Positions 9,546-64,000 of a DNA stretch of 64,000 bases are shown piece by piece. Under the pieces are notes generated by a model that saw only the letters and a list, made by a program, of their open reading frames with translations, was not told the DNA's origin and made no database searches. Each line of letters opens with the position of its first letter. The first letter of the stretch is position 1. The DNA comes from Xanthocytophaga agilis. Lineage in GTDB: Bacteria; Bacteroidota; Bacteroidia; Cytophagales; 172606-1. Where the stretch lies: contig NZ_JASJOU010000007.1 in assembly GCF_030068605.1 (NCBI RefSeq), forward strand, positions 124,001-188,000. Direction: 5' to 3'. A program made the position numbers and the translations under genes.

Positions 9546-10177
9546 TTATTCTATTGAGCAACTTTGAATCCTATCATATATGGATAAATAGTCACTTTTT
9601 ATGTATTGAGAAACAAGTAAATAATTGCCATACAAAATCTTTTCACTCTTTTTGTAAATAATCTCTTGAATTTCTTTATCTCCATTGCATCTCTCAATCA
9701 GTTGAGAATGCTCTTTTAACCATTCTGATTTACTCCACATATTTTCATATAGAGATAGTTCAATTTCCAAAATATGAAACTTATAAGTGGCATCTTTCTT
9801 AAGTTGCTCAAAATCTTCCTCAGATAAAGAATAGTAATGTTGTGGCTCTCGTTGTATTGCTTCCAGATACAACGGAAAAACTTCTTGCAATGACTTTATA
9901 CTATTCCCCCAATATGATTTTGCAAGAGTGAGAAAAGGTATACCTAATTTGGTGTTCTTAGTGAGAACAAACTCCCAGAAATCTATTTCCTGCTCTTTAG
10001 TCCAGCCATAATTGCACTGCATAAAATGAGAATGGATTCATGCTCCAAAAACTCATATCTGGAAATAAGAGCTTTGATTTTTTCGTAGCTGTAGTTCTTC
10101 TGTACGAAATCTCCGATTTGTGTTCCTTGGACTGTCAAACCGGGTTTTGTATTATATATTCCAAGCTGATGTAGCAT
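9546..10177 (-). pseudogene. Hypothetical gene split by an apparent frameshift
   Basis: Two overlapping frames on the minus strand look like halves of one protein of about 205 residues. The first runs 10177 to 9983 (starting MLHQLGIYNTKPGLTVQG) and the second 10022 to 9546 (starting MQCNYGWTKEQEIDFWEF). They overlap by 40 bases, and the second frame has a stop only six codons upstream of its ATG. Adding one base to the A-run at 10023-10026 (a T-run in the coding sense) joins them smoothly. Alternatives are two genuine overlapping genes or a sequencing slip in the run. The product is all-alpha and acidic in appearance, without recognisable motifs; context suggests an immunity-like role, which is speculative. 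Confidence 0.5.
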
Positions 10178-10300
10178 CTTATTCTATAGTCTCAGATAAG
10201 TTTCTATTCCAAACTTAGAATTTATAAGTAAAGAAACGACTGAAGGCCATTCGAATATAAGGGATGTTTCATTTTTTCGAAAGTGTATAGCTGTAAAATG

Positions 10301-10328
10301 AAGAAGTCCGGTTATAACCGGACTTCTT
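10301..10328 (-). terminator. Perfect palindrome overlapping a stop codon
   Basis: A perfect 28-base palindrome: AAGAAGTCCGGTTA followed directly by its complement TAACCGGACTTCTT. It contains the TAA of the minus-strand gene at 10312-10314 and is followed in that direction by CATTTTAC. It would form a stable hairpin and probably ends that transcript. Confidence 0.65.
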
Positions 10329-10710
10329 GTAGTTGTAGTGTTTCCGTAATATCTTCAAAGACACTATACCCTCTTCCTATTTTATCTGATTTTTCAACGG
10401 TTATAAATACATCCTGCCCTCCCTCATCAAACTCATGGTATATGTGTGTTATGACCAGTACGAGCTTGGCATCTTTCTCAATTACATCAACTATTCTATT
10501 GCGTATCTCTGCTATTTTATCCGGATGTTTATCTGAGATAACTTCAAATCCTTCTTTGCCTAAAAATATAGCTTCGCCAACTCTTGGCAGATAAGTTAGT
10601 TTACCTGTTAGTTTTAATCTAAAAGGTAATCCCAATACTAGTTGAATAGTAGATTCCATGTCTATGAATAAGTGATTATGAAAAAATTTAAAACTACACT
10701 GAATGTCCAT
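10312..10710 (-). CDS. Hypothetical protein, 132 residues
   Basis: A small soluble protein with no signal peptide. An internal Met at residue 18 (10659), opening MESTIQLVLGLPFRLKL, is an equally good start and would give 115 residues. The sequence alternates short hydrophobic strands with charged turns (VGEAIFLGKEGFEVISD; KLVLVITHIYHEFDEGGQDV), suggesting a small beta-rich fold. I do not recognise a family. It belongs to the same run of small minus-strand unknowns as its downstream neighbours. The stop codon lies within a perfect palindrome that likely terminates transcription. Confidence 0.68.
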   Translation of the reverse strand: MDIQCSFKFFHNHLFIDMESTIQLVLGLPFRLKLTGKLTYLPRVGEAIFLGKEGFEVISDKHPDKIAEIRNRIVDVIEKDAKLVLVITHIYHEFDEGGQDVFITVEKSDKIGRGYSVFEDITETLQLQEVRL

Positions 10711-10857
10711 GTAGATTGGACCTCTCTATTGCATAAATAACAGTGCCTGATTAAATTTTAATGAGGGATAATAGTTATGTAGGTGACTGGAAAATATCAC
10801 ACTTGTTTGTCCAACTATTTTTACAGCTAAAAGTTGTTGAGTACGACAATGGAATTC

Positions 10858-26491: not shown

Positions 26492-27386
26492 TCAATCTTC
26501 TGTAATAGCCACTATACTCCTATCATAAAACCGGACCAGTTCATAGTTTTTTTCATTTACCCAAAAACTACGAACCCTTGTCAAATGCTGTTTTTCATCC
26601 TGCTTTAGATTCCAACACAATTTTCGCAAACATTCCGGACAAAAATAAGTAGGACGCCCATCCATCTCAAACTTGTTATTACTCCCATTCATACAACATT
26701 CATATTTGACACAATGTCTAATAGAAAACATATGTCCAATTTCATGATGCAGTCCGGATTGTACGCTGAAACACCTGATCAAATTCTTTAGGATTATCAG
26801 CACATCCAAAGCGATTAATAGACCATACACCCACACGTTTTTTCAAAGATGCTAAACCAAAGACATAGTTCCAATCTGGTCGGGGATACAAATCATAGGT
26901 TGTAAATGCGATTAAAACAGCGGCATCACCAGGTAGCACAGGAGCTAACACGTCATTGAGAATCAGACTGGCACTTAGTTGTATACCTGTATCTTCCCGT
27001 TCTCTTGAGTCTTTCAGAAAGTTGGCATTCTCAGGCACAGACACATACTTTACTTGAAGTCCATAAAATAACCAGAGATATTGGGCTGTTTTTGAAACGA
27101 TTTGTAATTCTGTGGGAGAAAATGTCCCAATACGCATAATATAGATCTTGTCCCGCCCACCATCCAGACGAGTGGGCTTTTTGTTCACATAGGTTTCAAA
27201 AGACTGATAGGTTTCTTTGTGTTCTGCCAGCCATTCTCCTGGCATAGGCTGTTCTTTTAACTTATGTAAAGGAGTTAATTTCTGTTGTATAACGACTCGA
27301 CTGTCTTTCTTTTCTTTACACGAAATCATTAACAAACATAAAATTCCTCCCACTAAGAGAGTTCTTACATACTTATGATTTAACAT
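26492..27386 (-). pseudogene. Archaemetzincin-type zinc metalloprotease, frameshifted lipoprotein
   Basis: Two frames together give one archaemetzincin. The first (27386 to 26742, 214 residues) starts with a lipoprotein signal MLNHKYVRTLLVGGILCLLMISC and reads to TIRTAS before TGA. The second (ending 26492) carries the catalytic text HHEIGHMFSIRHC, then YECCMNGSN and YFCPECLRKL, which match the family's HExxHxxxxxHC...CxM...CxxC zinc sites. Known homologues run directly from the 'TIRTA' helix into HEIGH, so the frame changes at about 26744-26752 (two bases missing, or one extra). As printed, no single frame contains both the N-terminal half and the zinc site, so the protease should be dead unless the ribosome shifts frame. 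Family identity is firm; the cause of the break is open. Confidence 0.82.
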
Positions 27387-48303: not shown

Positions 48304-49623
48304 ATGCAATTTTCACGTTGGTTTTTATTTTTTATTCTGGGTTTATCGGGAGGACTCGCCTATGCTCAGGAGCTTACGCTAAATCAATTAATTGATAAGG
48401 CGCTACAAAGCAATCAAAATGTACAGATCTCTCAGATAAGTGAACAACAGACAGCAGCACAGATCAAATCTGTAAAAGCAGGTGCACGGCCTCAGGTAAA
48501 CGTAAGTGGTGATTACAAACGTTACATAAAAATTCCTGGACAGGTAGTTCCTGCTTCAGCATTCGGTGGCCCAGATGGTACATACACAACATTAGCATTT
48601 GGATTACCTTACAATTTATCGACTTCCTTACAAGTCAGTCAGGCAATCTTCAATCCATCTATTGGTATAGGCCTTAAAGCAGCTAATCTGAGTCTGGATC
48701 TTTCTAAGCTTCAGACTACTAAAACAAAAGAAGATGTTGCTTATAATGTATCTGTGACTTACTATAATCTACAGAGTGTTACTCAGCAAATCGTTTTCTT
48801 ACGCAGCAACCTGGCATCTACAGAAAAACTTATTAAGGTAACAGACCTGCTATACAAAAATCAACTCTCACAAGGTATTGATGTAGATCGTCTGCGTATT
48901 ACTCATACACAAACTAAAACCCAGTTACAATCACTTCAGGCATCAGAAGAAGAACTCATCAACATGCTCAAATTCCTGACAGGTACACCACAAACTGACT
49001 CATTAAAAGTACAGGTAGCTATTGACGAACAAGCTATTCAGCAAGCTTTACTACAACAGGAAACTGTAAATCGTACAGATCTGCTTTTACTAGATCGCCA
49101 GAAAGCATTAAATGAACTTAATCAACGCAATACCAAAGCAGGCTTTATTCCTACTTTATCAGCCTATGGAGTAGCCAACTCTACATTTTACGGACAAGGA
49201 GGAGAAGATGGAGTGTTCAAACATGTGCCTGGTTATTGGGTGGGTCTGCAATTAAACTGGAATATTTATGATGGATCGGCCAGACGAGCAAAGCTAAGCA
49301 GTCAGCGTGCGGAGAACAATACACTGAATCTGCAAATGCAACAAGCGCGTGAATCAATTTTGATGGAAATGAAAAATGCCCAGAATAAGTTTCTGGTAGA
49401 GCAGCAAAATCTGGCATCCAGTCATGAACAGGTAACACTAGCCGACAAAGTATACACCCAATCTCAACTTCAATTCAAAGAAGGTACCAGTTCTCTTACG
49501 GATGTAATCCAGGCAGAGAACTCTTTGCGGGAAGCTCAAAATAACTATCTGAATGCACTTATAAATTTGCGATCTGCAGAGCTAGACTGGAAAAAAGCAT
49601 CGGGAAATCTTATTGCCAAATAA
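48304..49623 (+). CDS. TolC family outer-membrane efflux protein (second system)
   Basis: A 439-residue channel subunit with signal peptide to about residue 21 (GGLAYAQ). Two outer-membrane efflux repeats are visible: ELTLNQLIDKALQSNQNVQI ... VAYNVSVTYYNLQSVTQQIVFL and AQNKFLVEQQNLASSHEQVTLADKVYTQSQLQFKEG. First gene of the efflux operon controlled by the preceding TetR. The next gene starts 31 bases after its stop. Unrelated in sequence detail to the TolC at 22.4 kb, so this is a second independent system. Confidence 0.94.
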   Translation: MQFSRWFLFFILGLSGGLAYAQELTLNQLIDKALQSNQNVQISQISEQQTAAQIKSVKAGARPQVNVSGDYKRYIKIPGQVVPASAFGGPDGTYTTLAFGLPYNLSTSLQVSQAIFNPSIGIGLKAANLSLDLSKLQTTKTKEDVAYNVSVTYYNLQSVTQQIVFLRSNLASTEKLIKVTDLLYKNQLSQGIDVDRLRITHTQTKTQLQSLQASEEELINMLKFLTGTPQTDSLKVQVAIDEQAIQQALLQQETVNRTDLLLLDRQKALNELNQRNTKAGFIPTLSAYGVANSTFYGQGGEDGVFKHVPGYWVGLQLNWNIYDGSARRAKLSSQRAENNTLNLQMQQARESILMEMKNAQNKFLVEQQNLASSHEQVTLADKVYTQSQLQFKEGTSSLTDVIQAENSLREAQNNYLNALINLRSAELDWKKASGNLIAK

Positions 49624-49654
49624 TCCTACTCAAACATATACAAAGCAACAACAT

Positions 49655-61523: not shown

Positions 61524-61986
61524 AATTATAATAATCCAATACATGATTATAATATTTAACTGCTTTACAGATACATTACTAAACCAATGATTATCTTAAT
61601 CCAATCACATTGATCATCTGATGACCACAAAAATTCCGGTTAATTGCCAGTTTGTATAATTGTAGTAATTATTTCGTGTCTCTACATAAATTTCAATAAA
61701 ACTATCTTCTTAGTCAAGAAGCTATATACTCACTACTATTTGTCAAAGACAAATAACATTTATCCTTATTACAGCATTTTCAGGTTTCCGTTTGCAGTCA
61801 CTTACATTTCTTATATATTAGCCACCTTGTATTGAAACCACCCTTTATAAAACATACAATCAGAAGCTGATAATAAATCTATGAATACACTGGATTACAA
61901 TTTATCTACCAGTTATCTGGTCTGCTTCTGAATGAGTCAATTGTATTGTATAGTGTTGATTTTGCATCTATCCGGCAAACTTTTTT
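61524..61986. other. AT-rich intergenic region before the histidine kinase
   Basis: This 463-base stretch carries no convincing gene; short frames in it have no protein-like pattern. It must hold the promoter of the histidine kinase. I see no repeat or RNA element. Confidence 0.4.
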
Positions 61987-64000
61987 ATGAACCACAGCCA
62001 GGAAGAACCTTCCATGCCACACATGGAGAGTAGATATGATGGTATCTCCAGTAATACTGTTTCTCAGCAGGTATTGGCTTATGCCCGTGCATTTGGAAAT
62101 ATCTCCTCTCAGATGGTTCATTTACATAATGCAGCTACTTTCGAATTTCTATATGTCAGTGATCACATTTCATCTCTTTTAGGTTATACATTTCAAGAAC
62201 TTCACAAAGAGAAAAAGACACTTCTTTCGCTTCTTACGCCTGCTACTCCCAGAGAGTACATCTTGCCTCTTATCCAACTCTCCATACGAGATGGAATAGA
62301 CCATAAACCTCAACCCTTAAACTTAAGGATTAGGCATAAAAATGGTTCGGAAAAAATACTGCAAACACAATTTACTGTATTTGAAACAGATGCCAATGGC
62401 AATCCTCATATCTTGCTATGCCTTTCTCAGGAAATAACACAGGAAGTCCAAAGTATTACGTACACTCAAGTCAGTGACGGTTATGAAATTCAGTGGGATA
62501 GTGAAATATTGATGGCGGAGGCAGAACGTATGCGCCATTTTGGAACCTGGCAGATGCATTTGCCTACAGGCCGCATTGGCTGGACAGAAGGTATGTATCA
62601 TATTTTTGGTTACTCGGATCCTGCAACACGCCCAAATATTATTACGCTGGAACTGATTTTCTCTCATGTGCGTCCGGAAGAACGTCAAAAGCTTTGGGAT
62701 GAAGCCCATACCAATCTGGCTAAAGGAGAAGATTATCAGGGAGAATGGATTATGGTACGAAGAAATGGAGAACAAAGAGTTTTGCTGGAACAGGTCCGTA
62801 TTCTTAAGGATGCAGATAATAGGCCTGTTGTTGTGTTGGGTAGTACCTCTGATATAACAGAAGAACGTCAAATGGCCAACAACCTAAATAAGATTGAAAA
62901 ATTACTTCATGAAAATGAACGGACGTTTGGCTTTGGGAGCTGGGAGTGGAGTGCAGTGACCAATAAAATAATGTGGTCGGATGGTACTCTATTGCTATTT
63001 GGGTTGGATCCAGAAGAATGGAGATACAAACTAACCTATAAGCATTCGCTGACACTTGTTGATCCCAGAGATACTGCACACACCTTACAAGTAATGGAAA
63101 AAGCTATTCTAAACAGGCAAACGTATGAGATCGAGTTTCGTCCGAGACATGGCACTCCTGAACGATGGTTACGAAGTCGTGGCGTACCAGTATATGATAC
63201 AGAAGGGAAGCTGGAAAGAATTTATGGCACTACTGTTGATATTACAGCCGAACGTAAAGTACTACAGAAATTACGGGAGAACGAAGAATTACTTTCTACA
63301 GCTGAACATCTTACACGTTCAGGTAGCTGGTTATGGGATATACGAAAAAACGAAGTAACCTGGTCAAACGGGCTTTGGGAATTACTGGAATATCCGCCTG
63401 AGGAAAGAACACCTAGCGTTGCATCTCAGTTTTACTATGAACATATTCATCCCCAAGATAAAGCAGCTTTAGAACAGTCTTCCACCCATTTTCAGGAAAC
63501 AGGTATACGTACTGCCTCACCCATATACCGATTGATTACAAGATCTGGACAAACCATCTATGTAAATAATAAATTACAAATAGTAGAGCAAGACACAAAA
63601 GGTAAACCCTTACGTGTAATAGGAGGAACCGCAGATGTGACCCATTTAAAAAATATTCAGATGGAATTGGAGAAAAAGGTTGAGCAACTCAATCACTCCA
63701 ATGCAGAACTAGAGCAATTTGCCTATATCGCTAGTCACGACCTTCAGGAGCCCCTGCGCAAGATCGTTGCATTCTGTAATCTTCTTGTCCGCACATATCA
63801 ACCCCTTTTTGATGAAACAGGTCTTATGTACCTGGATCGGATTGAATCTGCTGTTCGGCGAATGCAGCACCTGATTAGTGATCTGCTCGATTTTTCACGC
63901 ATAAGTAATCGAATCAATCCCACAGAATATTCTTTTGAGCGCACAGACCTGAATCAGATAGTCCGAAATGCGCTACAGGATCTTGAGTTGGCAATTCAGC
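61987..64000 (+). CDS. Multi-PAS sensor histidine kinase (cut by right edge)
   Basis: The frame is open from ATG 61987 (MNHSQEEPSMPHMESRYDG) to the window end, 671 codons so far. About four PAS domains follow one another (about residues 25-135, 170-295, 310-430 and 435-560), the later ones with PAC-type text such as GTTVDITAERK and GGTADVTHLKN. A coiled coil then leads to a HisKA domain with the phosphoacceptor motif FAYIASHDLQEPLRKI (His584). The ATP-binding HATPase domain lies beyond 64000. There is no TM helix, so it is a cytoplasmic sensor; the PAS ligands are unknown. Similar proteins are bacteriophytochrome-related or PAS-rich kinases of Cytophagales. Confidence 0.92.
   Translation, partial: MNHSQEEPSMPHMESRYDGISSNTVSQQVLAYARAFGNISSQMVHLHNAATFEFLYVSDHISSLLGYTFQELHKEKKTLLSLLTPATPREYILPLIQLSIRDGIDHKPQPLNLRIRHKNGSEKILQTQFTVFETDANGNPHILLCLSQEITQEVQSITYTQVSDGYEIQWDSEILMAEAERMRHFGTWQMHLPTGRIGWTEGMYHIFGYSDPATRPNIITLELIFSHVRPEERQKLWDEAHTNLAKGEDYQGEWIMVRRNGEQRVLLEQVRILKDADNRPVVVLGSTSDITEERQMANNLNKIEKLLHENERTFGFGSWEWSAVTNKIMWSDGTLLLFGLDPEEWRYKLTYKHSLTLVDPRDTAHTLQVMEKAILNRQTYEIEFRPRHGTPERWLRSRGVPVYDTEGKLERIYGTTVDITAERKVLQKLRENEELLSTAEHLTRSGSWLWDIRKNEVTWSNGLWELLEYPPEERTPSVASQFYYEHIHPQDKAALEQSSTHFQETGIRTASPIYRLITRSGQTIYVNNKLQIVEQDTKGKPLRVIGGTADVTHLKNIQMELEKKVEQLNHSNAELEQFAYIASHDLQEPLRKIVAFCNLLVRTYQPLFDETGLMYLDRIESAVRRMQHLISDLLDFSRISNRINPTEYSFERTDLNQIVRNALQDLELAIQ

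Follow-up and report, generated by a model that had tools for sequence, protein, structure and literature searches.

The window, a 64,000-nucleotide stretch of the Xanthocytophaga agilis genome, carries on its minus strand a gene for a lipoprotein archaemetzincin that is divided between two reading frames. The features of the locus are as follows.

27386-26742, minus strand: N-terminal part of the lipoprotein archaemetzincin (listed ORF, 214 aa from an ATG)
26836-26492, minus strand: zinc-site frame (listed ORF, 114 aa from a nominal GTG; assigned by Pfam PF07998 and by its motif)
26745-26748, minus strand: site of two bases missing relative to the copy in the same-genus genome G001 (gap placed within these positions by two aligners, one of them BLAST)

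The N-terminal ORF comprises a signal peptide with a lipobox, an extension and the first part of the M54 domain, and its C-terminal end, FQRTIRTAS, is set by a premature stop just past the break. The LLMISC near its start fits the lipobox rule and marks a putative lipoprotein signal. Alone, this ORF has no Pfam match at E ≤ 0.001 and a weak match to NCBIfam archmetzin (34.1 bits, cut-off 145). The zinc-side ORF contains the stretch LHHEIGHMFSIRHC (= HEIGHMFSIRHC = HHEIGHMFSIRHC), followed by C-x4-C-x-M and a CxxC (FCPEC), and by itself matches Pfam Peptidase_M54 at 38.4 bits against a cut-off of 24.4. Only 26492 to about 26747 of this ORF is equivalent to the intact protein; the rest, upstream, is an out-of-frame reading of the N half. 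A scan for promoters and terminators gave little above shuffled sequences.

The initial annotation had described an archaemetzincin with a lipoprotein signal, split between frames that meet at 26744-26752 and otherwise complete in its catalytic elements. Each of these points was borne out: the zinc-side ORF passes the Pfam M54 cut-off, the putative signal is visible, the C half carries the zinc motif and the cysteines, and in an alignment with an intact sister copy the break falls at about 26745-26748. The existence of two ORFs could also be taken to mean that the two halves are translated independently and function together as a split protein, an idea we find scarcely credible, as the zinc-side ORF starts within the out-of-frame reading of the N half and the ATG overlapping the stop opens, by eye, a third frame and not the zinc frame.

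An intact copy in the same genus

Of 59 genomes searched with the N-terminal part, 8 gave matches, among them the genome of the window itself. The best other match, in G001 (apparently Xanthocytophaga flavus YF14B1), is 98% identical over residues 1-213 of the N part and belongs to a whole gene of 298 aa. The surroundings are collinear between the two genomes and the gene is the same, but it occupies one intact frame in G001, whereas it is split in the window. The alignment holds a single gap, of two bases, on the window side and immediately 5' of HEIGH. Because the window is two bases short, a ribosome would need a +1 or −2 shift to reach the zinc frame. In another genome of the genus, G002 (completeness 72%), the 1801-base query matched over its first 40 bases alone, which lie outside the archaemetzincin gene and so carry no information on the break.

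Directly observed are the split into two frames, the whole gene in G001 and the two-base difference between the copies. From these observations we infer, with a probability of about 0.7, that a gene for a long-form lipoprotein archaemetzincin (about 300 aa) has recently been inactivated here by a two-base deletion; that the missing bases reflect a deletion and not a sequence error is part of this inference. A deletion directly before HEIGH would put the zinc-site part out of frame, and ribosomes would then run on for no more than one or two codons past the break, leaving a 214-aa lipoprotein that lacks every zinc ligand and is presumably not a protease. The loss would be tolerated, perhaps buffered by an intact second, short archaemetzincin gene elsewhere in the genome. 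This short M54 gene (G000:C14, L001 1387-2010) encodes 207 aa, is the sole other M54 match found in the genome, begins with a lipobox-like LLACTS and scores 125.6 bits against NCBIfam NF033823, below the cut-off of 145. G001 has the short copy too. A recent pseudogene, if this is one, would matter little beyond correct genome annotation.

Deletion, sequence error and selective constraint

A local assembly or sequencing error, which would leave the gene intact in the living strain, is possible though we doubt it. The gene looks constrained outside the break and keeps its zinc motif and cysteines, as an error would predict, and the absence of obvious decay would be expected from an error as well as from a recent event. 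The break site, however, lies outside any run of four or more equal bases, and a comparison of gaps between the window and G001 also points away from error. For this comparison 44 of the 56 ORFs were used, the 12 left out mostly overlapping others, and 39 of the 44 lie inside the stretches aligned with G001 (8946-31782, 31882-61544 and 61590-62780). A frame-changing gap is absent from 33 of these 39. Of the other six, two are the ORFs of the archaemetzincin gene and two fall where the sequences diverge (9546-10710); in the last two (16392 and about 49613-49639) the gap sits at the ORF start or close to it, which we read as start-choice effects. The remaining four gaps inside ORFs are all multiples of three.

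With 33 of the 39 ORFs free of frame-changing gaps, a real, recent deletion is favoured over an error, and the gap count lends no support to a generally error-prone assembly. Recent break and sequence error had both been put forward at the outset; both stay in play, with the comparison leaning towards the break. At about 9546-10828 the window differs from G001 by several indels, among them ones of 31 and 36 bases, and two listed ORFs are broken there; this region is possibly non-coding or decayed.

Relative to G001, dN/dS is 0.131 for the N half (211 codons) and 0.194 for the C half (83 codons), ratios based on few nonsynonymous differences (5.5 and 7, respectively). Among 21 other genes the values range from 0.003 to 0.373; three exceed that of the N half and only one clearly exceeds that of the C half. 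Judged from these substitutions, both halves look constrained on average, less so than most neighbouring genes. Within the C half, the 47-codon core shows a single difference of each type, synonymous and nonsynonymous, so a ratio there means little; the 36-codon tail shows six of each. The higher dN/dS than in most other genes could reflect some relaxation that predates the break. An old pseudogene is less likely, given a C half that has no stop beyond the break and a ratio as low as 0.194. As the gene shows no clear decay, a true break, if real, is probably recent.

Long-form copies in the order and class

A profile built from six intact relatives matched 38 of the 390 genomes searched in the order and 53 of the 395 searched in the class. 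At most five or six first-look candidates were scored per genome; the long-form loci number at least 35, and some copies may have been missed. Loci above 100 bits were counted as long-form, together with G191 (70.5 bits), whose pieces align to the long form, giving 35 distinct loci with the window included (L015-L039 and L049-L058). Weaker, mostly shorter matches were left out (20 of 48 rows for the order, 54 of 67 for the class), and 16 of these 74 rows have stops inside the matched stretch. The long-form lipoprotein archaemetzincins have a patchy spread across the sampled order and class.

Thirty-one of the 35 long-form copies are single-frame with the zinc motif, one is single-frame without it (G153), and three are split: the window, G053 and G191. 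Single-frame here means open over the matched stretch, which in G203 runs to the contig end and in G758 begins only at model position 52. The break in G053 (L005, 1315-2296) lies upstream of the zinc site, in the GV-SI region, and HEIIH replaces HEIGH in this copy. In G191 (L039) the break is near the position equivalent to that in the window and, by our reading, leaves the copy one base short, not two. An accessory, dispensable role would be in keeping with losses in individual genomes. The breaks in the window and G191, two of the three split loci, lie no more than about two codons apart. One could imagine that in lipoprotein archaemetzincins indels recur in the stretch just ahead of the catalytic helix and act as a reversible, phase-variation-like switch, but we give this next to no credence.

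Programmed recoding, in which a +1 or −2 ribosomal shift at the junction would yield the whole enzyme, deserves very little weight. Both frames are otherwise intact, the junction immediately precedes the catalytic motif, and G191 is broken at almost the equivalent position, all of which recoding would accommodate. The same-genus copy in G001, however, requires no shift, and 32 of the 35 long-form copies, with the window counted in the 35, are single-frame over the matched stretch. A shift conserved among the relatives was not found: G001 is intact and the splits in G053 and G191 differ in place or size, that in G191 lying moreover in a copy that lacks the zinc ligands. No slippery heptamer of the form XXXYYYZ occurs in the 101 bases scanned at the window site, where less usual +1 signals were sought by eye only, and the sole run of at least four equal bases there is a TTTT after the stop. 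The 121 nt around the junction fold slightly less stably than shuffled sequences do on average (z 0.67), with 147 of 200 shuffles matching or exceeding them. The initial annotation had raised recoding as one option and proposed a search for a slippery heptamer with structure near the shift; neither was found in the 101 bases scanned or the 121 nt folded, and the option was not upheld. Because G001 is intact, most copies are single-frame, the other splits differ and these stretches showed neither a heptamer nor a notable fold, we reject recoding as unlikely, though the near coincidence of the breaks in the window and G191 counts against dismissing it altogether.

The two long-form copies from genus g63, in G153 (L038) and G191, lack the zinc ligands, with KQIANLFSIPNV / KQIVNMFSISNV standing where HEIGH...HC is found elsewhere. 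Both have also lost the CxxC. The G153 protein, with its frame open and its ligands lost, may be a pseudo-enzyme.

Placement among archaemetzincins

Pfam classes the intact protein of G001 as an archaemetzincin (PF07998, 47.2 bits against a cut-off of 24.4); it does not reach the cut-off of NCBIfam NF033823 (101.4 versus 145 bits). The six-protein long-form profile matches the solved structures 2x7m, 3zvs and 4axq (archaemetzincin) and 3lmc (zinc-dependent peptidase) with E values from 1.7e-21 to 2.7e-16. A literature search on peptidase M54 in Bacteroidetes found no paper, and was too narrow for the group to be called undescribed.

The long form shares with the M54 archaemetzincins (PF07998, NF033823) the HExxH...HC zinc motif followed by C-x4-C-x-M and CxxC. 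It differs from them in its N-terminal extension and lipobox and in scoring below the NCBIfam cut-off, and the window copy differs further in being frame-broken. The archaemetzincin consensus is given as HEXXHXXGXXHCX4CXMX17CXXC in PMC3427221. Set against this consensus, the window C half (L032) has the ligands and cysteines, but Ser replaces the Gly, and 16 residues, not 17, precede the CxxC. Every one of the 33 motif-bearing long-form copies has the 16-residue spacing, as does, by eye, the solved 4axq. At the metzincin Gly position, 22 of these 33 copies (the window among the 33) have Ser, 10 have Gly and one has Thr.
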